Shown here piece by piece: positions 1 to 58,557 of a stretch of DNA of 64,000 nt. Source of the DNA: Branchiostoma floridae (Eukaryota; Chordata; Leptocardii; Amphioxiformes; Branchiostomatidae); NCBI RefSeq assembly GCF_000003815.2, contig NC_049988.1, positions 23,529,926 to 23,593,925 on the forward strand, given 5' to 3'. The first letter of the stretch is position 1; each line of letters opens with the position of its first letter. The notes under the pieces are model-generated. The model was not told where the DNA came from. It did no database searches and saw only the letters and a list, made by a program, of their open reading frames with translations. The translations under genes were made by a program, and so were the position numbers.

Positions 1-1629
1 ATGATGGATATAAGTTATCTGGTTGCGGCCCAGCTCCAAATGTTGTAGCCGGAACAGATTTGCAAATGTACCTGGCGAGATCTTGGTTATTTGATTGTAG
101 CATAGATACAACATTTGTAGCTTCGGTAGATGTGCAAGTGCACCCGACTGAATTATTTTTATCTGGTTTCTCTTTAGCCAAAGTATTTTGAGGTGGGTTA
201 GGTTTGCAAATGAATCAAGCTGAATCTCTGTAATGTTGTTGAAGGACAGGTGCAAATTTGGTAGCCGATGTTGATTTGCGAATAATCCAGGCTGAATCAC
301 TGTTATTTCGTTTTCGGACAAACACAACGCTTCGACCCGGTCTAAATCTGCAAATGTTCCAGTCTGAATTTTTTCTATCTTGTTGGAGTACAGGAACAAT
401 TGTTGGAGCTGGGTTAGATTTGCAAACGTACGAGAATTGATCGTCGTTATCTTGTTGTGGGCCAGATTTAACTTTTGTAGCTGGGTTGAATTAAAAAATG
501 TATCTGGCAGAATAATCGTTATAATGTTCCCATACAACACCAACTCTTCGAGCCGTGGTAGATTTGCAAATGCACCAGGAAGAATCGTTGTAATCTGGTT
601 GTTACCCAGGCTCAAAACTTTAATCCGGGGCAGATATGCAAATAAACCCTCCGGCACTGTTGTTATATTGTTGCCGTCCAGGTTCAACTTTTGTATTTGG
701 GATTGATTTGCAAATATGTCAGGCTGCATCATTGCTATTTGGTTGTTGGGCAGGTACAACTCTTTAAGACTGGTTACATTTGCAAATGCACCCGGTTGAA
801 TCATTGATATCTGATTCTTAGACAGCTGAAAGAATTCGAGCCGTGGCAGATTTACAAATGTACCTGCCTGAATTGTTGTTATCTGGTTGGAGGACAGCTG
901 TAACGTATGTAGCTGGGGTAGATTTCCAATCGTACCAAACTGAATATTGGTTATCTGGTTGAAGAAAAGGCACAAGTGTCCGAGTCGGGGTAGATTTGCA
1001 AATGTGCCAGGCATAATCATTGTTATTTTGTTATGGTTCAGCCACAATTGTTCCAGGGAGATTAAATCGGAGAATAGATCCGACTGAATCCCTGTCATCT
1101 GGTTGAAGCACAGATCCAAAAATCTTAGCCGGGGTAGATTTGCAAATGCACCAGACTGAATCATTGTTATCTTGTTGTGGGACAGACATAACTGTTGTAG
1201 CTGCGGTAGATTCGCAAATGTACCTGACTGAATGTTTCTTATCTGGTTGAAGGAGAGTGACAACCTTGCGAGACGGGATAGAGAAAATGTACAGTGATGG
1301 ATGTTAGTAATTTTGTTCTTGCTTAAGTCAAAGCTTATGAGCTTGGGTAAATTTGGTAAACAATCAAGAGTTGTGATGCAATTTCCCAAGTACAACGCAA
1401 ACAAATCCTTATACAATACCAACTCGGACCGGTTTAAAGTTGCTATAAAATTACGTCTCAAATCTAAGGTCTTAATGGATGGTGGGAGGTTCTGAGGGAT
1501 GCTGGTGAGGGCCCGCCCACTGCAGTTGCATCTTGATAATGGTCGGCATCTGCAGTCGGCTTCCGGGATGATGGGCTCCTTCAGGATTATGAGAAGGAAC
1601 ATCAGCAGGTGTCGCAGCTTTCTTCCCAT
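1..1629 (-). CDS. Secreted or membrane leucine-rich-repeat protein, partial (C-terminus off window)
   Basis: I read this frame directly: from the ATG at 1629 down to base 1 there is no stop, giving 543 codons without an intron. Residues 1-24 form a signal peptide (basic MGRK, then a Leu/Ile/Phe core). Next comes a cysteine-rich LRR N-cap with the pattern DCRC...CNC, followed by SIPQNLPPSIKTLDL, the usual entry into the first repeat. About 21 repeats follow, nearly all exactly 24 residues (72 bases), with consensus LxxLxLxxNQITxIxxGxFANLPx. This is the extracellular LRR type found in Toll-like receptors, Slit and many amphioxus LRR proteins, so the product probably acts at or outside the cell surface in recognition or adhesion. 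The C-cap and any transmembrane, TIR or Ig part would lie left of base 1, so the subfamily cannot be decided. A TAG stop lies in frame just upstream of the ATG. The repeats are unusually uniform, which suggests recent expansion. Confidence 0.9.
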   Translation of the reverse strand, partial: MGRKLRHLLMFLLIILKEPIIPEADCRCRPLSRCNCSGRALTSIPQNLPPSIKTLDLRRNFIATLNRSELVLYKDLFALYLGNCITTLDCLPNLPKLISFDLSKNKITNIHHCTFSLSRLARLSLSFNQIRNIQSGTFANLPQLQQLCLSHNKITMIQSGAFANLPRLRFLDLCFNQMTGIQSDLFSDLISLEQLWLNHNKITMIMPGTFANLPRLGHLCLFFNQITNIQFGTIGNLPQLHTLQLSSNQITTIQAGTFVNLPRLEFFQLSKNQISMIQPGAFANVTSLKELYLPNNQIAMMQPDIFANQSQIQKLNLDGNNITTVPEGLFAYLPRIKVLSLGNNQITTILPGAFANLPRLEELVLYGNIITIILPDTFFNSTQLQKLNLAHNKITTINSRTFANLTQLQQLFLYSNKIEKIQTGTFADLDRVEALCLSENEITVIQPGLFANQHRLPNLHLSFNNITEIQLDSFANLTHLKILWLKRNQIKIIQSGALAHLPKLQMLYLCYNQITKISPGTFANLFRLQHLELGRNQITYIHH

Positions 1630-2372
1630 GATTCCCTGCAACCTAAACAGAACATGAAGCTCCTATGTGAAACCACGCCAGATTTGTAAAAATACAACTT
1701 GAGCCCAAACGTACAGTACTTGCTCTCTGGCCCAAGAGCTATCTACCAATAAGAAATCACGACGATTGCAGGTGTAGATCTGGAGATGGCAAAACCGCAC
1801 TTTCCGCTGCAGTACAATCAAAACAAGCCACTGTGAGCGGTTGGGTGGGGAGGGTTGGGGGGGAGGTTTGGGGGCAAATCCAATTATTTTATTAAGACCT
1901 ACTCACACACAAAGTATCAATGCAATCCATCCAAGACTGTTTTGAGGTATGCTGTTCACACACAAATACACAAACGCTACAGAAAACATTGCCTTCTTGG
2001 GGAAGGCAATAATGCTTTTCTGAAAAATCACTGACTAAAAAGAGTTGTTGGTTTAAGTCTTGGCTCGCACAGGAGAAATATAATACGCCTTTAATTGTCC
2101 CTCCCAGAACTTTGGTTTCCTTCTAACCTCTTGCTAAATGCATTACTCTGAAATAACAAAAGAATCAAAATATCAAAAATTGGAATATTTTCCGAACATC
2201 ATATGTTCTTTTCGGATATTTGAGGGTTAAGGCAGAAAACTCCTTTTGTCGCCTGTTTCCTGCTTGTATGTTACGTGTAATCAATGGCTGTTCCTTTGTA
2301 GTGAAACAATATGTTTTGGATTACAGGGATTTCATGATACTGTTGGGTTTATTGTCTGGAGCCGTTTTGGAC
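1630..2372. other. Intergenic, with one degraded copy of the octamer-repeat family 3' end
   Basis: No gene seen. About 1705-1995 resembles the 3' third of the dispersed repeat at 12037-13378: the shared order is a 'ctctctg..gagggctatctacca' type stretch, a CTGCAGTAC word, a run rich in ACACAC, then a terminal hairpin (GCCTTC ttgg GGAAGGC) followed by AATAA. Bases about 2340-2372 match the tandem unit found again at 8.5-9.4 kb, so this stretch is the left flank of the LINE insertion. Confidence 0.5.
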
Positions 2373-3478: not shown

Positions 3479-6400
3479 ATGAAGCTGATCTCCTTCAATT
3501 GTAGAGGAATCAGATAATACAATAAAAGACTAAAAATTTTAACTTGGTTAAAAAAGAAGAAGACTGACATATGCCTTTTACAGGAAACTTATCTGACAAA
3601 GGATATAATACATACTATAGATAAACAATGGGGTGGTAAAACCATCCACTCTTTTGGTACAAACCATAGTAGGGGTGTAAGCATTCTATTTGACAGTAAA
3701 CTGCCTGTAGAAATTCTAGAACAAAAAAATGAAACTGAAGGAAGGAAAATTGTTGTGAATTTCAAATTGTACCAGGAAAAATATACCCTACTATGTTTAT
3801 ATGCACCAAACGATCAAAGACAGAGAAGAACTTTCTTCTATGACATTCAAGAATGGTTACGTGACTGGAATTTATACACAATGTTGGTTGGAGGTGATTT
3901 CAACTCCATACTTGACCAAAATATGGACCTTCTTGGTGGGTCCCTGGCGACAATTGACAAAAATCAGGCCGTAAGGGACCTTTGTGCCCATTTCAACCTA
4001 CAAGATATATTTCGGCACATGCATCCCACACTGAAAAGTTTCACTTGGAGAAGAAAAGCAACTGCACGAAGGCTAGATTACTGGTTGGTTGAAAACACCT
4101 TGACTGATGTTATGGAAGCTGGCCATTATGCCAGTATTTGCAGTGATCACAATGCTGTGTTTATAGATATGCATGTTAAGGAAACACCAAGAGGAAATGG
4201 ATTCTGGAAACTAAATGTTAATCTTTTCAACGATCCAAACTATAAACACGAAATAGAAACGCTTATTGAAGATACCAAAATAGAATTCAAACAGTGTAAA
4301 CCAGAACTTATATGGGAAATATGCAAAATGAAGATCAAAGAGCTGTCTATAGCATGGTCAAAGTTTAAAACTAAAGAGAGAAACACCTTAGAAAAAGAAA
4401 TAACAAATAAATTGGAAACTCTACAAGAGAAAATAGATAAGGATTTAAATCCTCAAACTCTTGCTGAATATGAATGTGTTAAGATGCAGCTGGAGAGTAT
4501 TCTCCTAGAAAAGGCCAAAGGTCAACAAATCAGAGCAAAAGCAAGATATATTGCAGAAGGTGAAAGACCATCCAAGTACTTTTTGAGCTTAGAAAACAAG
4601 AAGCAAAGTCAAAATTGTATAACCTCGCTAGTGAGAGACAATGAAAAAATACATGACCAAGCAGAGATATTAAAAGAGTGTAGAAGCTTTTATCAAACTC
4701 CATACTCCTCTAAAAAGGTTCCCGAAGACAAAATTGAAGACTTCCTGAGATCTATGAATATTCCAAACATACTATCTGAACAAGAAAAGCAGGAGTGTGA
4801 CAAACCAATCACATTACAAGAATTTGAAGAAGCTGTAACAAGCATTAAACAAGGTGAAACACCTGGCCCTGATGGACTTCCATCTGAGTTTTACAAATTG
4901 TTCTGGCCTTCAATTGGAGTTTTAGTGCACTCTGTTATTTGCAATGCACTCAGTGAAGGAAAACTACCACCCTCCTTCAGAAAGGCCCTACTTAGATTGA
5001 TACACAAAAATGGAGACATGGAATCACTTAGCAATTGGAGACCTATAAGCCTCTTAAATACCGATTATAAGATACTTGCTTTTGTCATGGCAAATAGAAT
5101 TAAACCTCTCCTGAAAGATCTAATAAATAAGGACCAGTGTGCTTACATAAAAGGACGTTTCGTAGGACAAAATGTTAGATTAATTCAAGATATAATTAAC
5201 TTCTGTGACTCCAAAAATAAGACAGGTATTGTACTATTCATAGATTTTGAGAAAGCGTTTGATTGTGTGGAGCACAATTTTATGTTTAGGGTATTAGAGA
5301 AATTTAACTTTGGCCCAAATTTTGTAAACTGGGTAAAGATCATGTATTCTGACTGGCTGGCCTCAGTCATCAACAATGGCTGGAAAGCCGCTAGTATACA
5401 ACTGCAGCGGGGTATAAGACAAGGATGCCCATTAAGTGCGCTACTGTTTCTTCTTGTAGCAGAGATCCTATTTTATAGCATACAAAATAACCAAAATATC
5501 AAAGGTGTCACAGTAGACGAATCAGAAATTAAGATGTGCCAGGTGGCAGATGATACCACTGTTTTCTTGTCCACTGAAGACTCACTGTATGAAACACTTG
5601 AGTGCCTTAGCTCATTCTCTAATGTGGCTGGACCCAACTTAAACAAAGCTAAAACAAAAGGACTGTGGCTAGGTATATGGAAACACAGAAAAGATGAAAT
5701 AGCAGGTATCCAATGGCCTTCTGTAATTAAGTCACTTGGTGTAAATTTTGGTCATAGCAAGGAACAATTAATGAAATTAAACTGGGATGACAAGGTAAAA
5801 TAAGTTAAAACAGTTCTCAATACATGGTGCCAAAGGAATCTTACTTTATTTGGGAAAATAACCATTGTAAAGGCATTGGCAGCTGCAAAGGTAACATATG
5901 TAATGAACATTCTTCCAACACCAACAATAGTGTTAAAGGAGCTAAATGCTGCCTTTTTTAATTTTGTGTGGAGTGGAAAAAATGACAAAATTAAACGGAA
6001 AACTCTTATTGGCAACTATGAACAGGGAGGTTTAAAAATGCTAGACATACGAGGGGTGATCAATATGTTCTCGGCCTAACCCAGAAATAATAAGCACAAC
6101 TCAAATTTTGAGGCACAACTTTATAGTATGAAGTCTTTTATCAATATCCTCCAAATTACAAATCATTGGAGTCATTACTTTCCAGGCATTCGTTTTATGC
6201 AAATTAGAAGGTAAGTGGCGAGAAAAAGAAGGGTGAAGTGTGATCAGACAATTTGACCCGCACACCTCAGGTTTCAGATCAATTGTCCACTTTTTTTTCG
6301 TTATCCCTTACCTAACGTTACTGGGTGTCGCCTGCAACGTAATGATCACAATAATTTGAATTTTGGTACACATTTATATAAGATTTTATACAAGTACGTG

Positions 6401-21648: not shown

Positions 21649-21759
21649 NNNNNNNNNNNNNNNNNNNNNNNNNNNNNNNNNNNNNNNNNNNNNNNNNNNN
21701 NNNNNNNNNNNNNNNNNNNNNNNNNNNNNNNNNNNNNNNNNNNNNNNNGTGTGTATGCG

Positions 21760-21905
21760 TGAGAGTATATTAGTGTCTCTCCCGTACAAGATGAAGGTGA
21801 TACGCCACCGTGTCTCCCCTAAAGCAGGCTCTCATGGTGAGGAATTTTTTTTGTGTGTGTGTATGAGTGTGTGTGTGTGAGTGTGCATGTATGTGTGTGT
21901 TTGTT

Positions 21906-21938
<33 letters not shown>

Positions 21939-22061
21939 ATGTTTGTGTATGTGTGTGTGTGTGTGTGTGTGTGTCGCTCCCGTACAAGACCAAGGTGCCG
22001 TGGCCCAGGATCTGTCCTAAAGCAGACTCACATGGTGAGCCCTGTGTGTGTGTGTGTGTCT

Positions 22062-22092
<31 letters not shown>

Positions 22093-22270
22093 GCTGTTTG
22101 TGTGAGTGTGTGTGTGTGTGTGTGTCGCTCCCGTACAAGGCCAAGGTGCCGTGGCCCAGGATCTGTCCTAAAGCAGACTCACATGGTGAGCGCCTTGTGT
22201 GTGTGTATGTGTGGTGTGTGTGTGTGTGTGTCTGAGTGCCTGTGTGTGTGTGACTGTGTGTGTTTGTGTA

Positions 22271-22307
<37 letters not shown>

Positions 22308-22353
22308 CTGTGTGTGTGTGTGTGTGTGTGTGTTTGTGCGTGTGTGAGTGTCT

Positions 22354-22384
<31 letters not shown>

Positions 22385-22452
22385 GCTCCCGTACAAGGCT
22401 AAGGTGCCGTGGCCCAGGATCTGTCCTAAAGCAGACTCACATGGTGAGGAAC

Positions 22453-22485
<33 letters not shown>

Positions 22486-22730
22486 TAGTGTGTGTGTGTG
22501 TTTGTGTGTGTCTGCGTGTGTGTATGTGTTTGCGTGTCTGTGTTAATGTGTTTGTATTTGTGTGTGTGTGTATGTGTGTGCCTGTGTGGGTATGTGTGTG
22601 TGCGCATGTGTGTGTGTGTGTCTGCGTGTGTGTATGTGTCTGCGTGTCTCTGTGTTGGTGTGTGTCCATGCATTTTTGTGTGTGCATTTGTGTTTTTGTC
22701 TTTCTGTGTTTGCATGTCTGTGATTGTAAT
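21760..22730 (+). repeat. GT-rich array with four partial copies of an ERK exon and its splice donor
   Basis: Four 61-bp blocks (21776-21836, 21974-22034, 22125-22185, 22383-22443) encode [20 protein letters not shown] plus one base and are followed each time by GTGAG, a splice donor. They are separated by imperfect GT repeats (100-200 bp each). The peptide matches the end of ERK exon 6 ([22 protein letters not shown] in vertebrates). Copy 1 has many changes (KMKVIRHRVSPKAGSH). None has an AG acceptor in front, only GT repeats. Copy 4, joined to the exon at 22851, gives [13 protein letters not shown] in phase. Confidence 0.85.
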
Positions 22731-22850
22731 ACATACCCAGGGATACAATTGTATCTGTGGCATTGGCAGTGTCACAAAGCAGTATGGGTAAGAGGGTGAA
22801 GTCTGCCATCTTGTTTCCTTGCTGACACTTTCTTTTGTTGTTTTTCCCAG

Positions 22851-22960
22851 CTCTGAACCTCCTGGACAGAATGTTGACCTTTAACCCCCACAAGCGCATC
22901 ACAGTGGAGGAGGCACTCGCCCACGAGTACCTGTCCCAGTACTACGACCCGGACGACGAG
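22851..22960 (+). CDS. ERK1/2-type MAP kinase, one internal exon
   Basis: A 110-bp exon lies between the acceptor tttttcccag and the donor GAG-gtttgt. It encodes [20 protein letters not shown] and continues [16 protein letters not shown]. This is kinase subdomain XI and the following helix of ERK1/2: the HKRI arginine is the conserved subdomain XI residue, and vertebrate ERK2 has [20 protein letters not shown] here. ERK is the last kinase of the Ras-Raf-MEK cascade and phosphorylates Ser/Thr-Pro sites in cytoplasm and nucleus. The upstream exon is represented only by the partial copies at 21.8-22.4 kb; its full form may be in the gap at 21649-21748. The final exon is not seen and may lie beyond the gap at 23338. 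Confidence 0.9.
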
Positions 22961-23437
22961 GTTTGTTTGTTTGTTTATTTGTTTGTTTGTTTGCTTCAAC
23001 CTTCAGGGTTCGAAAATACCACCTGCATATGCAGGTTAGTGCAGGGGAAATTGGAGCTGTGCAGGGATTTCTGGGGGCTATCTGCACCTGACCTGGCCTG
23101 GTCCATGTACTGGGTTTTAAAACATAATGTCATATTAAAATAATTATTTTTACCCCGCGAACCGCAAGGTACGGTCGGGAGAAAAAAAAATGGTTTTCCA
23201 TACTGGTTCCTTCTTTCCCCTGGTCGCGGACGGTTAAAGTGAATCATCTCCCGTCGTTCCTGCACCGAAAAGACCTGAAAATTTGGCCCCAAAGGGTAGA
23301 GGTGGGCCAAATACCCAGAGAGGTTTTTTCCCCCCTTNNNNNNNNNNNNNNNNNNNNNNNNNNNNNNNNNNNNNNNNNNNNNNNNNNNNNNNNNNNNNNN
23401 NNNNNNNNNNNNNNNNNNNNNNNNNNNNNNNNNNNNN

Positions 23438-26400
23438 GTAGCCAAACGTTTATAACTGTGATCAAGAGGACAATGGGGTGCTGAAGCCATTTATAGGCGA
23501 ACTCGAGGTATTGTAAATTTTATGAAACGTACAGAGAGGTCCTCGGTCGGTATTTGCGCTAAAATGGCGAGCCGCAGTTAACTTGTAATGTTGTGCGGGC
23601 ATATCGAAATAAATAATCGTTACCGATTCAGTCAAGTTGTGATTAGCCCACTGTTTGGATGTTTTCTGGTCGTTTTGAGATTTTTTTTCTTTTTACGAAC
23701 AACATGAAGAGGCATAGGGTCACTTTGAAATCTGTGTAGCCAGCTTGTCTTCATTTTAGGACCGGTTTAGAGTGTGATGTTGATAGCCGCAGCCTCCAAT
23801 GGCCCTCCACACGCCCATCTGCCTCGTTCTTTTTCGCTTCGCCGTCTTCGTTACTGATCATAAATTCACTAGGGCGCAGTCAGTATAGATTTCATTTTTC
23901 TGAACGTCTTGGACTGTTTTCCTTTTTTCAAGTAAGATGCATGTAGAGGACTGTATACGTCACCTAGAAATCTATGTAATTACTTCTTCTTTGATTTGAC
24001 CATTGTGTCTTTATTGAAATCCCCTATTATCACCGGGCGTAGATTTTTAGATTTTGTTGTATTGCTGTGTTGGTTGTTGTTTTTCGGCTATGTCATTCCT
24101 TGGCGTGTTAAGAATATTCCTGATACATAGGACGAAACATCTGTAGATTAACATACAAGTACTATTTAAAATTTGTTAGTGAGGGCCTTGTGGAAAAATA
24201 CCTCGTTTACCAGTACACGTCATCATAGTGTCTAAAATACTTCACTTTACTGTACTGTTGTATATTCAAAGAGCGGGTATAAAGTTTCAGACTGTATAGA
24301 CAATACTGGGAAATTAGTAGGCCCGGAATACTTTGCAAACTGTGAAGTTGCTGCTCTTCTATCTACTTCGTGAGATGTTTAGCGCCACAATTATCAATTT
24401 GTGTAAAGATAAAGCTATAGAATTACGTAAAAATTCTAAAGGTTGGTTACTGAGTCCGTCAGAGAGTGGTCAAACCTCATTTAATATGTTTTTCTAGCCA
24501 TCCTGATTTTTCTTCTGTTATAAGTAGGGCATGTGATAGCCCGGGGTTACCTTGTGAGCTGTGGTTCTTGTTGCTGCATTTGTGGACTTGTTCAGGGTGT
24601 GATGTGTGGCATTTTCTGGGTCGGTTTTTGAGATAAAATTGTGATCCGAAATTAACTTGTAAACATTGTGATGGCATATGGAAATAATCGTTACCGATTC
24701 AGTCAAGTTGTGATCAGCCCACTTTTCAGAGGTTTTTTGGTCGTCTTGATATATTCCTTCTTTTTACGTACCACATGAAGAGGCACGGGGTCATTTTGAA
24801 ATCCGTGTAGCCAGCTTGTCTTCATTATTCAGACCTGTTCAGAGTGTAATGTTGATAGCCGCAATTAATAATAGCTGTAAAATGTTGATTTAATCAATTT
24901 TCTAGCTTGATTGTGTCCGTTACTGATTTCATTATGGCGCGATATACTTTTCAATTCACTTCATAGTGTTTGATGCCACAGTTAACGTTACTTATGTTAC
25001 CAATGGGTAAAATGGCGATGAATCGATTTCTTCCGACTTTTTTGTATGAGTGCTTGGTCAGTACGTAATTTCTAAGTTATTTTCTAAGCTTCTATAGCTT
25101 GTTTCTTTCTTAAAGTAAGTCACAGTTAGAGACAAGCTTCTATAGCTGTTTTCTTTNNNNNNNNNNNNNNNNNNNNNNNNNNNNNNNNNNNNNNNNNNNN
25201 NNNNNNNNNNNNNNNNNNNNNNNNNNNNNNNNNNNNNNNNNNNNNNNNNNNNNNNNTCTTTACTGTTGACTATTGTACCCTTATTAGAATCCCTGATTAT
25301 TTTTATCCTTCGCCGTAGATTTTTAAATATTGTTGTTAATATGTGTGGGTTGTTTTTGTTCGGCCACGTCAGTCCATAGTGCGTCATAAGTATCTATATT
25401 AACCCTCAAACACCCGAGTGGGGTCCATTTGGACCCCAGGCGTAAATTTTTAAGTACCATTTGAACATTTTTTATCTGACGAAAAAATCCTTCCGTGACT
25501 TTGTCAACCAATATCTTTTATACCTTCTACTAAGTTTTTATGAAGATTGGTATAATACTGTGGAAGCTATAAAGAAAGTCCGTGATCAGTCCGTCTGGGG
25601 TCCAAACGGACCCCAGCCAAAAAGTGCAGGTTTTGAAACAAACTTTTGAGTCTAACTCCTTAACTCCTTATCCTATCACCACCAAACTTTCAGAGAATAG
25701 TAAACATGTAAAACTTAATCCTCCTAAAAACTTCTGTGTCATCACCATATAATATGGCGATATCATGACGTCATTTAGCTTATAAGGGCGGCCATCTTGG
25801 ATTTTGACTAATGACGTCATGAAATTAGCATAAATTATAAATTTTGAATCATGAAAATAGCATTAAACTTCATAGAATTTTATTGTTTGTAAGAAAACAA
25901 GCATGGTTTACCAAAAAACCTTGTTTGAATCGAAATTGGAAATTTTTTGCAAAAATATGCCTGTCAGATATCCGTTGCCATGGCAACCCTAAATAATGAT
26001 AAATTTACTTTATGGACAAAAATATTTTGCTAACAATATTTTGTGATATATCACCAAGTTTCGTAGCTTTAGCACTAACTGTTCATGAGTTATGCGACAT
26101 AAAGCTTGCTGAGGGCCTCAAAATTCCCCTCTCTGGTCAGAATGGGTTTAGTGCAAAACATGGTCCCTCTGATCTTTTGCATAAATTATGATAATGAGGA
26201 GAAATTAGCAACACCTTAACATGTCAATATATTCCTCTTACATTGACGAAGCAATGTATGCACAATGATCACCGATAGGGATTGGAACTGAGATTTTATG
26301 AACAAAACATTTTGGGGTCCGTTTGGACCCCACTCGGTCATTTTAGTCGCAAAAAAAGGTCGGGTGCTTGAGGGTTAAATAGAGTAAAACATCAGTCAAC

Positions 26401-29400
26401 TACACATTTATGTACTACTCGACATTTGTTGGTGAGAGCAATGTGGAAAAATACCTCGTTTACTAGTACATGTGATCACAATCTCTGAAATATTTCATTT
26501 TACTGTACTGCTGTATATTTAAAGAGTAGGTATAAAGTATCGGACTGTTTAGACTACAGTGGGAAATGAATTGGCCCGGGATAGGCAAACTGTGAAGCTA
26601 GTTGCTGTCCTTCTCTCTAGTTAGTGAGATGTTTAGTACCACAATCATCAATTTGTGTAAAGATAAAGCTGTGGATTACGCACAAATTCTAAAGGTTGGT
26701 TACTGTTTCCGTCAGGGTGTGGTGAACATGCATTTCCTTTTCATTGTAGCTTCCTATTTTGATTTCTGTTAAAAGTAGGGCATGTGAAGGCCCGGGGTCA
26801 CTTTGTAAGCTGCCGTTTTTGTTTCTGCTTTTCTGGACTTGTTCAGAATGTGATTTGTGGCGCGACTTAAACAATGGTGGTAAAGATGGTGCTTACGGGT
26901 GTGAAACATATTTACTGATTCCTTCGGCCTGATCAGTCTTTATTTCGAAGGTTTTTTTCTACAATTTTGAGATTAAGCCACATATATAGGGTCCTCTTCA
27001 AATCTGTATATTCTGTTGCTGTTCTTTTGTGCTAGGTTCGTTTCATATAACCATTTCCATCACATGGACTAAAAACGTGGGACCATGACACGTGTACTGG
27101 TCGGCTCTTGTTGGTCGCTTCCAAGAACAGAGCTACCCAAACAGCAATCTTGGTATTCAGGCTACGTGGTCGGTCATATCTATGGCGTGAAAGGCAGAAG
27201 GACACAGATATATTTTCATTTTATCCATAATTTGTTTGTCGATTGTCTCAAGATAAGACGCGTTTCTAGAAGCACCCTTTTATCTAGTTCGATACGTACC
27301 GGTTGATTAAGTATAAGTGTTGCCTGCTGTTTAAGATAGTGTTCTGTTCAATTTAAGTTTTGGTATAGCCAATAAGTTAAAGCCTGTAATGTTGGGAGGA
27401 GACGGAAGCGTGTTTTTGTTCTGGAAGTTGGGAGAATCAGTTACTACAATCGTGTCTATTTTATCATGGTTGTAAATCGGAGGGCAATGCCAAAAATGTT
27501 GCAGTTGTCGGTTGAGGAAATGGAATATTTTTCGAGGTAGCCAATTTAAACGTTTATAACTGTAATCAAGAGGACAATGGGGTGCTGAAGCCATTTATAG
27601 GCGAACTCGAGGTATTGTAAATTTTGTGAAACGTACAGAGAGGTCCTCGGTCGGTATTTGCGCTAAAATGGCGAGCCGCAGTTAACTTGTAATGTTGTGC
27701 GGGCATATCGAAATAAATAATCGTTACCGATTCAGTCAAGTTGTGATTAGCCCACTGTTTGGATGTTTTCTGGTCGTTTTGAGATTTTTTTTCTTTTTAC
27801 GAACAACATGAAGAGGCATAGGGTCACTTTGAAATCTGTGTAGCCAGCTTGTCTTCATTTTAGGACCGGTTTAGAGTGTGATGTTGATAGCCGCAGTTTA
27901 AAATGGCCGGAAAATGGTGATTGAATGTTTTTTTTCGCTTCGTCGTTTTCGTTACTGATCATAAATTCACTAGGGCGCAGTCAGTATAGATTTCATTTTT
28001 CTGAACGTCTTGGACTGTTTTCCTTTTTTCAAGTAAGATGCATGTAGAGGACTGTATACGTCACCTAGAAATCTATGTAATTACTTCTTCTTTGATTTGA
28101 CCATTGTGTCTTTATTGAAATCCCCTATTATCACCGGGCGTAGATTTTTAGATTTTGTTGTATTGCTGTGTTGGTTGTTGTTTTTCGGCTATGTCATTCC
28201 TTGGCGTGTTAAGAATATTCCTGATACATAGGACGAAACATCTGTAGATTAACATACAAGTACTATTTAAAATTTGTTAGTGAGGGCCTTGTGGAAAAAT
28301 ACCTCGTTTACCAGTACACGTCATCATAGTGTCTAAAATACTTCACTTTACTGTACTGTTGTATATCCAAAGAGCGGGTATAAAGTTTCAGACTGTATAG
28401 ACAATACTGGGAAATGAGTAGGCCCGGAATACTTTGCAAACTGTGAAGTTGCTGCTCTTCTATCTACTTCGTGAGATGTTTAGCGCCACAATTATCAATT
28501 TGTGTAAAGATAAAGCTATAAAATTACGTAAAAATTCTAAAGGTTGGTTACTGAGTCCGTCAGAGAGTGGTGAAACCCAATGTGATATGTCTTTCTAGCC
28601 ATCCTGATTTTTCTTCTGTTATAAGTAGGGCATGTGATAGCCCGGGGTTACCTTGTGAGCTGTGGTTCTTGTTGCTGCATTTGTGGACTTGTTCAGGGTG
28701 TGATGTGTGGCATTTTCTGGGTCGGTTTTTGAGATAAAATTGTGATCCGGAATTAACTTGTAAAAAATGTGGTGGCATATGGAAATAATCGTTACCGATT
28801 CAGTCAAGTTGTGATCAGCCCACTTTTCAGAGGTTTTCTGGTCGTCTTGATATTTTCCTTCTTTTTGCGTACAACATGAAGAGGCACGGGTCACTTTGAA
28901 ATCTGTGTAGCCAGCTTGTCTTCACTTTGTTACCAGTTTAGATTGTGATGTTGATAGCCGCAATTAATAATGGTTAACGTTACTAGTGTTACCAATTGTT
29001 AAAATGGCAATGAATCGATTTCTTCCGATTTTATTCATGAGTGCTTGGTCAGTACGTAATTTATAAGTTATTTTCTGAGCTTTTCTTTCTTAAAGTAAGT
29101 CACAGTTAGAGACATGTAGTTACCTTGAAATCAAAGTAATCACTTGTTCTTTACTGTTGACTATTGTACCCTTATTAGAATCCCTGATTATTTTTATCCT
29201 TCGCCGTAGATTTTTAAATATTGTTGTGAATTTGTGTGGATTGTTCTTGTTCGGCCACGTCAGTCCATAGTGCGTCATAAGTATCTATATTAAATAGAGT
29301 GAAACATCAGTCAACTACACATGTATGTACTACTCGACATTTGTTGGTGAGGGCAAACTGGAAAAAATACCTCGTTTACCAGTATATGTGATCACAGTTT

Positions 29401-45431: not shown

Positions 45432-47780
45432 TTTTGTGTTGTTGATGTGACTGGTATACGTGAGTCTATCATCTAGTGTGATGCCTACTAGCTTTATTTC
45501 CGGGAGAACTTCGATTCTTTTCCCATTGACTCTGATATGGTTGACCCGTGTGTCTGCTTGGTGGTTTGCTTGGAATATGAGTGCCTTAGTCTTTGATTCT
45601 TCCACCTTCATATTCCATCTCGGGCACCACTGGCTTATGAGTTTTGCAATTTGAAGCTCCACATGTGTGATCAGATCTCTTAAGTTTGGACCTGTCTTCC
45701 AAGCTGCCCCATCGTCTGCGTATTGAAAGTTGCTGAGGTCAATGTCACTGTACGCATCAGATGTATATATGTTGCATAACGTAGTAGACAATACTGCACC
45801 TTGTGGCACTCCCACCTTGCTTAGGGTTGGTTTTGTTGTTACTGAGTTTACTCTGAAGGAGATCTCTCTGTCTCTCAGAAAGCCACTCAGATAGCATAGC
45901 ATTCTCCCCTTAATCCCATGTTTCATCAGCTTGTAGAGGAGGCCTTCTTGCCAGATTCTATCAAAGCAGCCTTCATAGTCTGCGAACACTGCAACTGTGG
46001 ATTCCCTTCTCTTCCAACCTTCGTTGATATGTTGTATCATCCTTAGCACCCCATGTGTGGCTGTTCTGTTCTTCCTATAGGCCTCTTGGTAGGGAGATAT
46101 GATGCTGTTCACTTCTGTCCACCATGTGAGACGGTTGTTTATTATTCTTTCCAGTATCTTCCCTATAACGCTTGACAGAGTGATGGGTCTGTAACTACGT
46201 ACTTGGTTGTAGTCTTCTTTCCCTGGTTTCTTTATCAGTATCTTGCAGTCCTGTTTCATTTGCTTGGGAACATGACCTGTTATCCACACTCTGTTCAACA
46301 TATGGTGTAGTGCTATCAACATCCCTTCTCCACCTTTCTTGAGCATGATTGGTAGAATTCCCTCTAGCGGACTGGGTGAAGATCGTGAGTCCATCTTATG
46401 CACCGCTGCTTCAACTTCTTGTAGTGTTATGTCCATGTTGAGGCTATCTTCATGGGAGGTTTCTTCCAGTGTGTCTGCTTCCTGGAGTCTGTGCATCTCA
46501 TGTGTTACCACTGCTTTTACTGCGTGTGTGATGCTCTGTTTCCAGTGTTCTAATTCATCTGGCATATCCACTCCTCCTGGTGCATATTCTTTGCTCACCA
46601 CCTGTGCTATTTGTTCATCTGTTGTGGCTCTCTCCCCATTCTGCTGCTTTAGAGGTTGAATCGTGGGCTTGGCATTTCGTCCTAGCTGGTTCTTAATTGC
46701 TCTCCAAAATTTCTGAGGGTTGTTTGGGTTCATAGCTTTGAGCTGTTCATTCCAATATGTGTTTCGTGCCTCTTCCTCCATTTTGTTGAGAGTTTGTTTC
46801 TCATTCAGGTACTTTCTCAGGTTGTTGAGGTCTCTCCTCCTTCTGAACTTCCTTAGTGCTCTTTTGGTGTTTTTCATCTGCTCTTCCAGGGTTTTATTCC
46901 AGTGCCCTTTACTGTGTTGTGTTACTGTCTTCTTTTGGATGAGCTCTTCGGCACATTCCATTACCCTTTCTTTAAAGGTGTCATAGATTTTTTCTGTGTT
47001 GTCGTCGTAGTTGTCACGTGAACTGTTGGTTTCTTCGGCCAACTTCTGGAAAGCTGTGTCTGTCTTTCTTTCCCATTCTTGCCTGTCCAACTTACGCAGG
47101 TTCCATCTTTGCTGCTTCTCTATCTTCTCTTTGGTTCCCACTATCATGGTGATGAGGTTATGATCTGTTTGTAGCGGCACCTCTGGCTCCACTCTCCAGT
47201 TGCTTATGTGGTTTTGTGTATCTCTGTTTACTATGGTCAAATCGATGATGCTCTCCTCTCTTGTGGGAGTGTTGTTGTTGATAATTCTAGTCCTACTTGC
47301 TTCCATCATAGTGCTTAGCATTTGGCCCAGTTTGTTATCTTTCCTATCTCCCCAGGATGTATGTCTGGCGTTCAAGTCGCCACATACCACAAGATGCTTC
47401 CTTTTTGTGCTTTGATTGTTGATTATGTTCATTACTTCCTGCATGGCTAGTTTGTCGTCTGGAGGCACGTATGCAGATATCAAGAGGAAGTTCAAGGTAT
47501 TTGTGTATATGTTGAGCGCTACAACATCTGCATGTGTAGTCTGATCTAGTGGTTCTTCCATTACTTTAATGCTTTCTCTAGTTGCTATTGCGACTCCACC
47601 TCCTCTTCTTCCAGTTCTATTTCTTTGTACCCATTTCCAGGATTTTAAGCATACTGGTTGCTCACTTTTGTTCCAAAGTTCTGATAGACAGATTGCGTCG
47701 ATGTTCTTTTGTTCGCACATTCTCTCGACCAGAGCCGACGAGGTATTGATTGATCTTATATTAATTTGTGCGATCTTCAT
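45432..47780 (-). CDS. LINE ORF2: APE endonuclease and reverse transcriptase, C-terminus in gap
   Basis: The best start is ATG 47780 (MKIAQINIRSINTSSALVER), the usual beginning of an APE-type endonuclease; the frame is open further upstream but lacks ATG. Endonuclease signatures follow: LSELWNK, RRGGGVAIATR, AYVPPDD, VVCGDLNARHTSWG and LQTDHNLI. RT motifs: YRPITLSSVIGKILERIINN, FADYEGCFDRIW (motif A), GVPQGAVLSTTLCNIYTSD (motif B) and NFQYADDGAAW (motif C, intact YADD). The frame continues into the thumb region (KLVGITLDDRLTYTSHINN) and enters the gap at 45431. The enzyme would nick a chromosomal target and reverse-transcribe the element RNA there. The catalytic Asp residues of motifs A and C are present, so it may be functional. 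Confidence 0.9.
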
Positions 47781-48069
47781 TTTCCTGGTATGTATGTTTC
47801 TTGTTGGAAGATGCTGCAATGCTTTTGTAGTCACTGCTGTAGGTCTTTTGTAGATGTTAACTATTGTATCTTCGTAGACTATTGCTTTTGCCGTTTCTCG
47901 TGTGGGTGATCTTATTTTCTTCTTATGTGAGAGTCTTATTCCTCTTTTCCGTATGTGAGTTATCAATTATGTATAGTCTCTTTGTTGTTGCAATGTGCTT
48001 TTGTTTCCTTGTTTTTATGGTCTTTGCAAATGAGTATGTCTGTTCGATATTTCTTCCCCTTTTGCAGGT

Positions 48070-55764: not shown

Positions 55765-56093
55765 TCCAGGTCGACCAACTCGCGTATTTTTAGAACGAGC
55801 TTCCGTAAGGCCTTCCGGTAGATCTTGTACGGAAGGTGAAGACCACTGAACTTTTATATGACCAACTTCACTCAATGACAATGTCTAGCAGTTCGCGTAT
55901 TTTCAGAACGAGCTTCCGTAAGGCCTTCCGGTAGATCTTGTACGGAAGGTGAAGACCACTTAACTTTTATATGACCAACTTCACTCAATGACAATGTCTA
56001 GCAGTTAGCGTATTTTTAGGACGAGCTTCTGTAAGGCCTTTCGGTAGATCTTGTACCGGAAGACGAAGACCACTAAACTTTTACGTAACCACG
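55765..56093 (-). repeat. Three tandem copies of the GPCR last-exon tail
   Basis: The unit (about 106-118 bp) repeats the end of the GPCR coding sequence plus its 3' flank: 'cgtaaggccttccggtagat', 'cttgtacggaaggtgaagac', 'tcactcaatgacaatgtct' and 'agttcgcgtattttcag'. Copies lie at about 55770-55860, 55876-55975 and 55995-56085; the fourth is the real exon end (56094-56190). On the gene strand each would encode something like YKIYRKALRKLVLKIRELL and, in at least the two nearest copies, end DIVIE-stop. Confidence 0.85.
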
Positions 56094-58557
56094 TCACTCA
56101 ATGACAATGTCTATCAGTTCGCGCATTTTCAGGACAAGCTTCCGTAAGGCCTTCCGGTAGATCTTGTATCGGAAGGCGAAGACCACCGAGTCTAAGAAGG
56201 TGGAGGTTTGGTTGACCATCCAGAAGACGTCTAGCCAGACGGATCCGCCGTTCTCCAGTGTGAGCACCCCGGAGGTGAGCAGGCCGCCGATGGTGAGGAT
56301 GGGGACCCAGGTGAGGCTGTTGATGGCCACGGTGATGAGGTGAGTGTAGACCGCCTTCATCTGAACCTTCCAGGCGTCAGCTTGCTCCGCGTGTATTGGT
56401 GCCTGGGAACAAACAAACAATGAAATGAGAAGAACACAACGATTCTACATTATTTTCATCATTCAGTTGTGAAATATGTCTCCTTGCCGGCGCTAGCGGT
56501 TCACGCACAAAAGCTAAGATCGGTATGTATTCTACTAAATATTGATGATTTTTCTGTAATTACTTTTTATATTGGATAAGTATGTGTTCTAGTCTATATT
56601 GCAATACTTTCATGTAGTTTATGTAAGCATGTTCGTCTGTATTTTTGTGTCAGTCGTTACCAGCACAAGCTGCCAAGGCTGACCCAGTGTAATGATCTTG
56701 TTTCATTGCTAAATACAAAATACAAGTACACCGGAAACAACATTTTTCCAATGCCCGTTACCTGGTTAGCGATCTGAATACGGTGCCTCCGGGCCTCCAG
56801 AAGCACGCGGACGATGGAGAACGTGCAGACACCGTACAGGAAGATGTCGATGATCAGGTTAACTGAACGCTCTGGGCCCACCACGCCGCATGGGATGGTC
56901 AAACCGGAGGGGTAGGCTAGGCTGATGGGGGTAGGAGCCTGGGAAACGCTGTACCGGAGCACGTAGATGGCGGGAGGGAGGAAACTCACGACGGTACTCA
57001 GCACCATAGCCACAGCGATGCGTGTCCCGGTAACGGTAGTGTCGTAGGAGAACGGGTAGACGATGTAGCGATAGCGGCAGTACCACAGGCCGGTCATGAC
57101 GCTTAGGGAGAGGTTGAAGCCGCCAGGAGACAGGAAGGCCTGCAGTTTGCACCAGGTTTCGGTCATCACCCGACCGGACGCCAGCGAAGCAATGGAGGCC
57201 GGAGCGTGCACCACTGCGAGCAGGATGTCAGCTACCGCCATGCCGCCTAGGAAGTAGTTTCCACGTTCCTGTGTTACACATCACATGGATAGGACAAGGA
57301 ATCCGTCAATTTTGTACCCCAAACACAGTAAAAGATGAAGTGCACTTCGTCGAAGATCATGTGTAGTACGTGTTTAGTACGATGGAAATATTCAGCTTAG
57401 TTATGTAGAAAGTAGCTTCCTTCACTTTATAAGAGCAGCACTGAAAACTTGATAATCCTCATGAGTTTGGCTATAAAACCGGCAAACGGATAGGATAAAG
57501 AATATGTCAATTTTGTACCCCAGACACAGTAGTACATGTATATCAAGTGCAATTCGTTGTACTATGTGTGTTAACTAATGATTGTACTTGTATGTTAATG
57601 ATGGAAATGCCCTATCTAGTTATATATGAAGAAAGTAGATTACCTCACTTTCTACATATGAGCAGCACTTTATGCCCCTCATGAGACTAAACGTGTATAT
57701 TGTATATATACATTGTCATCCTTACCAAGAGGCGAGAAGCCGAATAGATCTATGATGCTCTTACGTGTATGTTTTGTCTCTGTTGTGACGTGTACTTAGC
57801 TCGGCTGGGCAAAAGTACAATAAATGTCTTCAATCATCAAATGGATACTTCCTTCTGATGCTGTGATAGGTTTTAAGCTACCCTTTGAATCTGCTTCGTT
57901 TTGCTGTTTATAAATTGTATCGGGGTTGTTTCTTACAAATCATTTCATTAGAAAGGCATGCTACAAACTCGAGGAAGAATAGTGAAACGATATGGAATAC
58001 TATTAACTAATGAAGGTGACAGATTGTCGTCGAAACGTCTCCGGAAGAATTAAAAGAAGTTTGTGTAACGAAGAAGACTTTGTTCAAAGGATATGGAATA
58101 CTAATGGAGATAGAAAACAAACAAACTCCCCCACCTCCATATCCAATGTGGTACTGACCGCTGCCTATTAACTAATGAAGGTGACAGATTGTCGTCGAAA
58201 CGTCTCCGGAAGAATTAAAAGAAGTTTGTGTAACGAAGAAGACTTTGTTCAAAGGATATGGAATACTAATGGAGATAGAAAACAAACAAACTCCCCCACC
58301 TCCATATCCAATGTGGTACTGACCGCTGCCAGTAGACAGCCGTTACCGAACAGCGCCCAGAACAAAATCATCAGCCACACGATGATCAGCAGTGGCTGTA
58401 GGGACGGCACGGCCCCGTAAATACCGCAGTGGGTGGGCTCGGTCCGAGTGCAACCAACGGGCGACGGGAGACCATCCGTCGGGAGGGGGGTCGCTGACAT
58501 CCCGAGGAACCATCCGACTGCGTCCGTTGCCTCGGTGAAAACTTCTGTCACGTTCAT
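56094..58557 (-). CDS. Rhodopsin-type G-protein-coupled receptor, three exons, 357 aa
   Basis: Exon 1 is 58557-58300 (86 codons), exon 2 is 57268-56762 (169 codons), exon 3 is 56402-56094 with TGA. Donors are GTGGGG and GTAACG; acceptors end taacacag and ttcccag; all joins are phase 0. The N-terminus has an N-glycosylation site (NVT). TM1 has the GN pair, and exactly 17 residues later comes NYFLGGMAVADILLAV (TM2), the standard spacing, which is why I chose this donor. TM3 starts at WCKLQ (disulfide Cys) and ends with CRYRYIVYP: the DRY motif is CRY. The second disulfide Cys is in TIPCGVV. TM6 has LTWVPI, where family A usually has CWxP. TM7 ends LDSVVFAFRY in place of NPxxY. The ligand cannot be deduced. 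Altered DRY and NPxxY motifs suggest unusual activation. The short basic tail ends DIVIE. Confidence 0.88.
58000..58329. repeat. 165-bp direct tandem duplication across the GPCR exon 1 border
   Basis: 58000-58164 and 58165-58329 are identical as far as I can read. The unit holds the last 30 coding bases of GPCR exon 1, its donor and the first 135 bases of the intron. The copy nearer exon 1 (58165-58329) supplies the working donor at 58300; the other gives a second donor 165 bp further on. Confidence 0.9.

Follow-up and report, generated by a model that had tools for sequence, protein, structure and literature searches.

An array in the genome of Branchiostoma floridae, in which four pieces of one exon end of the ERK gene (MAPK1), each with its splice donor, alternate with GT microsatellites, is probably a mirage-type array that lies in an intron of this gene and was built by steps through the GT tracts. 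Passages of PMC3087553 and PMC3902484 describe mirages as tandem duplications of exon/intron boundaries in lancelet genes, namely those for Adh3, globins, troponin C and PGBD5. The array reported herein was found in a window of 64,000 nucleotides (the whole stretch of DNA that was analysed, positions 23529926-23593925 of its scaffold) and consists of tandem copies across an exon/intron boundary, that is, four pieces of exon end followed by GTGAG, with a donor present in all of them (4/4). It belongs to a cephalochordate protein-coding gene, as judged from its B. floridae ERK residues and the exon that follows, the rest of the gene not having been located. It has been proposed that mirages give rise to new introns, and they allow one to test how the splicing machinery disregards decoy sites. 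The ERK case concerns a highly conserved signalling kinase, and the GT tract contained in its repeated block offers a concrete, testable mechanism. At a practical level, lancelet gene models and assemblies can break or be misread at such arrays.

Exon-end copies, GT tracts and the ERK intron

The array lies in a contig that comprises 21749-23337 only (1,589 bp) and is bordered on each side by a 100-N gap (21649-21748 and 23338-23437 in the gap list); all of its elements are read on the forward strand. Copy 1 (21776-21836) reads SLPYKMKVIRHRVSPKAGSH and is followed by a donor at 21837 and by GT tract 1 (21842-21973; 132 bp, 91% G+T). Copy 2 (21974-22034; donor at 22035) leads into GT tract 2 (22040-22124; 85 bp, 92% G+T), copy 3 (22125-22185; donor at 22186) into GT tract 3 (22191-22382; 192 bp, 92% G+T), and copy 4 (22383-22443; donor at 22444) into the remainder of the intron (22449-22850), which is GT-rich to about 22727 and then passes through other sequence and a pyrimidine tract to an acceptor AG at 22849-22850. 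The next ERK exon (22851-22960) starts in phase 1, its split codon giving A, followed by 36 residues. The donor of this exon opens straight into (GTTT)8 (22961-22993), making this a second ERK intron that begins in a G/T repeat.

Each of the four pieces is 61 nt long and is directly followed by GTGAG, so that every unit of exon end plus GTGAG measures 66 nt. While the exonic part is constant at 61 nt, the steps between pieces range from 151 to 258 bp because the length of the GT tract varies. An earlier sequence-only reading of this DNA had described four 61-bp ERK exon ends with donors, devoid of acceptors and alternating with GT repeats, and its steps of 198, 151 and 258 bp were reproduced. 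It had also described three near-identical in-frame copies and a drifted first one, which agrees with the counts obtained over 66 nt: copies 2 and 3 differ at 1 position, 2 and 4 at 3, and 3 and 4 at 2, whereas copy 1 differs from copies 2, 3 and 4 at 16, 17 and 18 positions, respectively (24-27% of sites). Copies 2-4 are near-identical (1-3/66) and copy 1 is divergent (16-18/66); the contig ends near copy 1, which is perhaps not the outermost unit. In copy 1 the differences show some clustering, 11 of 17 falling within one 21-nt stretch (0.02 by permutation; 20,000 permutations). When up to three mismatches were allowed, the 66-mer had 3 matches in the window versus 0 in 100 shuffles of the window.

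That the repeated unit is an exon end together with its donor and GT tract, as had also been proposed, is borne out by a 151-bp period recovered by TRF (87% matches, 21892-22273) and by a common left junction, the four pieces beginning at the same exon position within ~2 nt, beside GT sequence. The three spacers are 91-92% G+T and contain uninterrupted GT stretches of 24, 26 and 30 nt, and the bases right after GTGAG differ among copies 2, 3 and 4. Upstream of the common junction, copy 1 reads S-I-L-V versus S-Y-L-Q, a stretch too short to claim homology.

The MAP-kinase (ERK) identity given to these pieces from the letters alone held up in protein comparisons. In a PDB sequence search, the joined translation had MAPK1 as its best match (E 4e-24). 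In a protein search in which 268 of 280 candidates scored at E 0.001 or better and the best 120 were listed, B. floridae MAPK1 (P0001) ranked first, followed by models from B. belcheri (P0002 and P0003) and B. lanceolatum (P0004), a ranking tilted towards lancelets because the query contained exon translation from the window itself. The translation of copy 3 is exactly residues 265-284 of P0001, and the exon at 22851-22960 with its split codon is 100% identical to residues 285-321. Copies 2-4 are open and keep the frame; copy 4 departs from P0001 at one residue, the first (W for S), and copy 2 likewise at one (T for A).

Copies 2-4 and P0001 share PWPRIC, where P0002, P0003 and P0004 have PWNRIF (PWNRIFPKADSH in the longer segment), a difference that assigns the window to B. 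floridae. At these positions, PRIC in copy 3 (22155-22166) and P0001 stands against NRIF in the B. belcheri and B. lanceolatum models and NRLF in solved MAPK1 chains. As PRIC is common to copies 2-4 and P0001, gene conversion may connect this change with the array. The idea that the older NRIF state survives in copy 1 is weak, as inspection of the two deciding codons revealed that each is one change away from either residue.

With respect to splicing, each of the donors of copies 1-4 matches 7 of the 9 positions of the donor consensus, that of the drifted copy 1 included. AGs lie at -14, -12 and -4 upstream of copy 1 and at -50, -20 and -36 upstream of copies 2, 3 and 4, respectively; no normal-looking acceptor was found upstream of any of the four pieces, where the preceding 30 nt are only 37-53% pyrimidine (the stretch before copy 1 including 3 N). 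The acceptor for the exon at 22851-22960 is located downstream of all four pieces and in the correct phase. Since this acceptor is 3' of all four and the pieces are devoid of the first part of the exon, we infer that they are intronic rather than complete exons, and that they lie 3' of an authentic exon that is missing from the assembly. The sequence-only reading had placed the extra donors upstream of the ERK intron, but the pieces are inside the intron.

All three forward frames stop between 21749 and 21880 (ends at 21762, 21773 and 21880), so a read-through mRNA spliced at donor 2, 3 or 4 would hold a stop codon; no stop interrupts the coding frame in copy 1, and what lies 5' of the contig is missing, so this statement applies to donors 2-4 only. 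When continued from copies 1, 2, 3 and 4, the coding frame ends at 21880, 22105, 22235 and 22799, respectively. As each copy keeps a donor and lacks a normal acceptor, the copies would be expected to leave with the intron. In view of published splicing results on other mirages, they are most likely intronic decoys in the transcript, carried along as silent passengers.

Splicing and assembly as alternative explanations

Two other roles in splicing can be weighed against that of silent passengers. In one, ERK splicing would be controlled by functional decoys, either the additional donors or the RNA's UG repeats, which might for example sequester U1 or UG-binding proteins. The equal scores of all four donors (7/9), even that of drifted copy 1, are in line with such a function; however, recency alone explains the preservation of donors in copies 2-4, which leaves copy 1 as a single case, and for other mirages RT-PCR points to normal splicing (according to passages of PMC3087553). 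A regulatory role is accordingly very improbable. In the other, the pieces would be a series of alternative exons, each of them included in the mRNA to give a variant ERK segment. Although copies 2-4 have open frames with the expected residues, and an AG precedes copy 1 by 4 nt, this explanation is close to untenable, for the first part of the exon is missing, normal-looking acceptors are lacking, and no exact internal 8-residue repeat occurs in P0001 or in the two B. belcheri models. Complete alternative exons were rejected outright, with both the exon start and a normal acceptor absent.

A more serious objection to a mirage is that the array might be an effect of assembly, alleles strung together or Sanger reads mis-ordered in GT repeats showing one or two true copies as four. 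The B. floridae assembly derives from one diploid individual whose two haplotypes diverge strongly, and was built with ARACHNE, followed by HaploMerger2 and HiRise (according to passages of PMC7269912; the window appears to come from this assembly), and one haplotype of a globin mirage (BflGb6, haplotype 1) looked aberrantly assembled in the draft genome (passages of PMC3087553). In addition, the ERK contig is just 1,589 bp long and has a 100-N gap on either side. Nearby, 23444-24872, which begins directly behind a 100-N gap, and 27548-28971 share 96.4% identity across 1.4 kb, and this pair could represent leftover alleles or a recent duplication. Against such an effect, copy 1 differs at 24-27% of sites, which we take to exceed the allelic difference in this species; at least two tandem units are therefore real if the contig is contiguous. 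Moreover, the first bases past GTGAG differ among copies 2, 3 and 4, and DNA searches returned no second near-identical place for these exons in the 513-Mb assembly. On balance, we regard an assembly effect as unlikely. The worry about assembly voiced in the sequence-only reading is fair as far as copy number and surroundings are concerned, but stringing of alleles does not by itself give a copy as divergent as copy 1. Copies 2-4 may be partly allelic, their 1-3 differences over 66 nt being presumably within the allelic range for this species.

The searches covered an assembly of 513,431,437 bases in 431 contigs. By DNA search, the 66-nt piece had only 3 matches in the whole assembly, which are copies 2-4, with no near-identical copy elsewhere, and the exon at 22851-22960 had a single match, itself. 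A stray copy of the exon assembled elsewhere is unlikely, since these searches, whose reach is below ~25% divergence, returned only this place; an exon copy about 25% divergent could be overlooked, because the genome DNA search missed copy 1. No other ERK exons were found by tblastn with P0001 within 144 kb (the window plus 40 kb on each side). The complete exon, which is neither in the contig, nor in these 144 kb, nor among the matches from the DNA search of the assembly, seems to be unassembled, and may be missing in the gap at 21649-21748. Because the array begins near that gap, more copies may be unassembled to the left. The record of P0001 is placed on a contig of 24,376,856 bases, a size unlike the 23,931,428 of this scaffold, so the ERK contig may be misplaced in the scaffold. 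Copy number, which rests on one draft contig, and neighbourhood are unsafe.

The GT tract and a possible origin of the array

In the origin proposed here for the mirage, slippage or unequal exchange would at the outset have linked a point inside the real exon to the GT tract behind its donor, yielding a single block composed of exon end, donor and GT tract. One founding junction is the simplest reading, given that the pieces begin at the same exon position within ~2 nt. The GT tracts that flank this block would then have paired out of register and multiplied it, a step suggested by the common left junction and by spacers of unequal length; these spacers, taken together with pure GT runs of 24-30 nt, likewise argue for out-of-register GT pairing at this later stage. 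The outcome of these steps would be the present state, in which copies 2-4 are near-identical and encode the annotated residues (with one change each in copies 2 and 4) and copy 1 has drifted.

Whether the GT microsatellite was itself the cause is a separate matter. That a donor opening into a GT tract seeds mirages, the tract first pairing with GT-like exon sequence and later multiplying the block through pairing out of register, is a tentative and on the whole doubtful proposal. If true, it would explain how this class arises, the origin of which passages of PMC3087553 call unclear, and intron starts with long GT tracts would be hot spots, identifiable in advance, of exon-edge duplication and perhaps of intron gain. 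A search of the species' own genome with the GT tract gave at least 54 other matches among those listed (40 of 4124 candidates being scored), and two exact exon anchors were absent from the 7 other GT-tract loci inspected. GT tracts are common in this genome, and since these 7 loci held neither exon anchor, a tract alone is not sufficient and is at most a condition.

Comparison with other boundary repeats and published mirages

A related repeat is found in the MAPK1 model of B. lanceolatum (P0004), where RDLKPSNLLLNTTCDLK occurs three times, at residues 147, 195 and 227 (repeat span 147-243), and a linker, SNPPTYCSTPPVIL, precedes the second and third occurrences. From vertebrate gene structure, we take RDLKPSNLLLNTTCDLK to end an exon. 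The triple segment suggests another mirage, at a different ERK exon and probably read through by gene prediction; in comparison with the ERK array, it concerns the same gene but another exon and another species, and is known from a predicted protein only. Among the 120 ERK proteins listed, an exact internal 10-residue repeat is present in 2, P0004 and the partial Clarias magur model P0028.

Elsewhere in the window, a 113-bp tandem repeat of 3.6 copies (55780-56186, reverse strand) overlaps an ORF at 56097-56444 and repeats the end of its coding sequence together with the stop codon, forming a coding-edge minisatellite. This ORF has no Pfam match and follows a 7tm_1 ORF at 56663-57280, with which it may form one GPCR-like gene. 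Judging from the ERK cases and the end of this GPCR-like gene, tandem copying of coding edges may be usual in lancelets. The window also contains LINE-like ORFs with endonuclease and reverse transcriptase domains at 3518-5800 (forward strand) and 45432-47966 (reverse strand), and a leucine-rich-repeat ORF of 554 aa at 1-1662 (reverse strand) that overlaps a 72-bp tandem repeat at 37-1254.

In the open-licence literature searched, mostly by titles and abstract openings, no ERK mirage was found in print, nor was any amphioxus paper that joins a microsatellite with exon duplication. As to published mirages, 5' and 3' boundaries are both open to duplication, and the units quoted range from 10 to 160 bp (passages of PMC3087553). 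The closest cases are two B. floridae globin genes, BflGb6 and BflGb9, in which, as in the ERK array, an exon/intron boundary is duplicated with its splice signals. BflGb9 shares with the ERK array the duplication of a 3' exon boundary (that of exon 2, in a unit of 157 bp), and BflGb6 has units of 150-160 bp, with 6 and 3 units on its two haplotypes; the boundary units of the globin mirages escape homogenisation (passages of PMC3087553). While these globin units measure 150-160 bp, the ERK steps are 151-258 bp and include a long GT tract, and the globin passages mention no microsatellite.

The mirages of Adh3, known from B. floridae and B. lanceolatum, are like the ERK array in that the repeats extend over exon-intron boundaries, but their units are 10-72 bp; somatic length instability was reported for them and regular splicing suggested (as cited in passages of PMC3087553 and PMC3902484). 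A troponin C mirage is cited in a passage of PMC3902484. The same source reports 60-bp and 108-bp imperfect tandem repeats at splice sites of B. floridae PGBD5, whose copy number depends on the sequence version (2 versus 7, and 3 versus 6) and which were upheld after Sanger and Illumina data were re-examined. Being imperfect tandem repeats at splice sites, they resemble the ERK array, while no microsatellite is mentioned for PGBD5 in the passages on it. The mirage class is already published, and the ERK case adds to it a GT microsatellite inside the repeated block.
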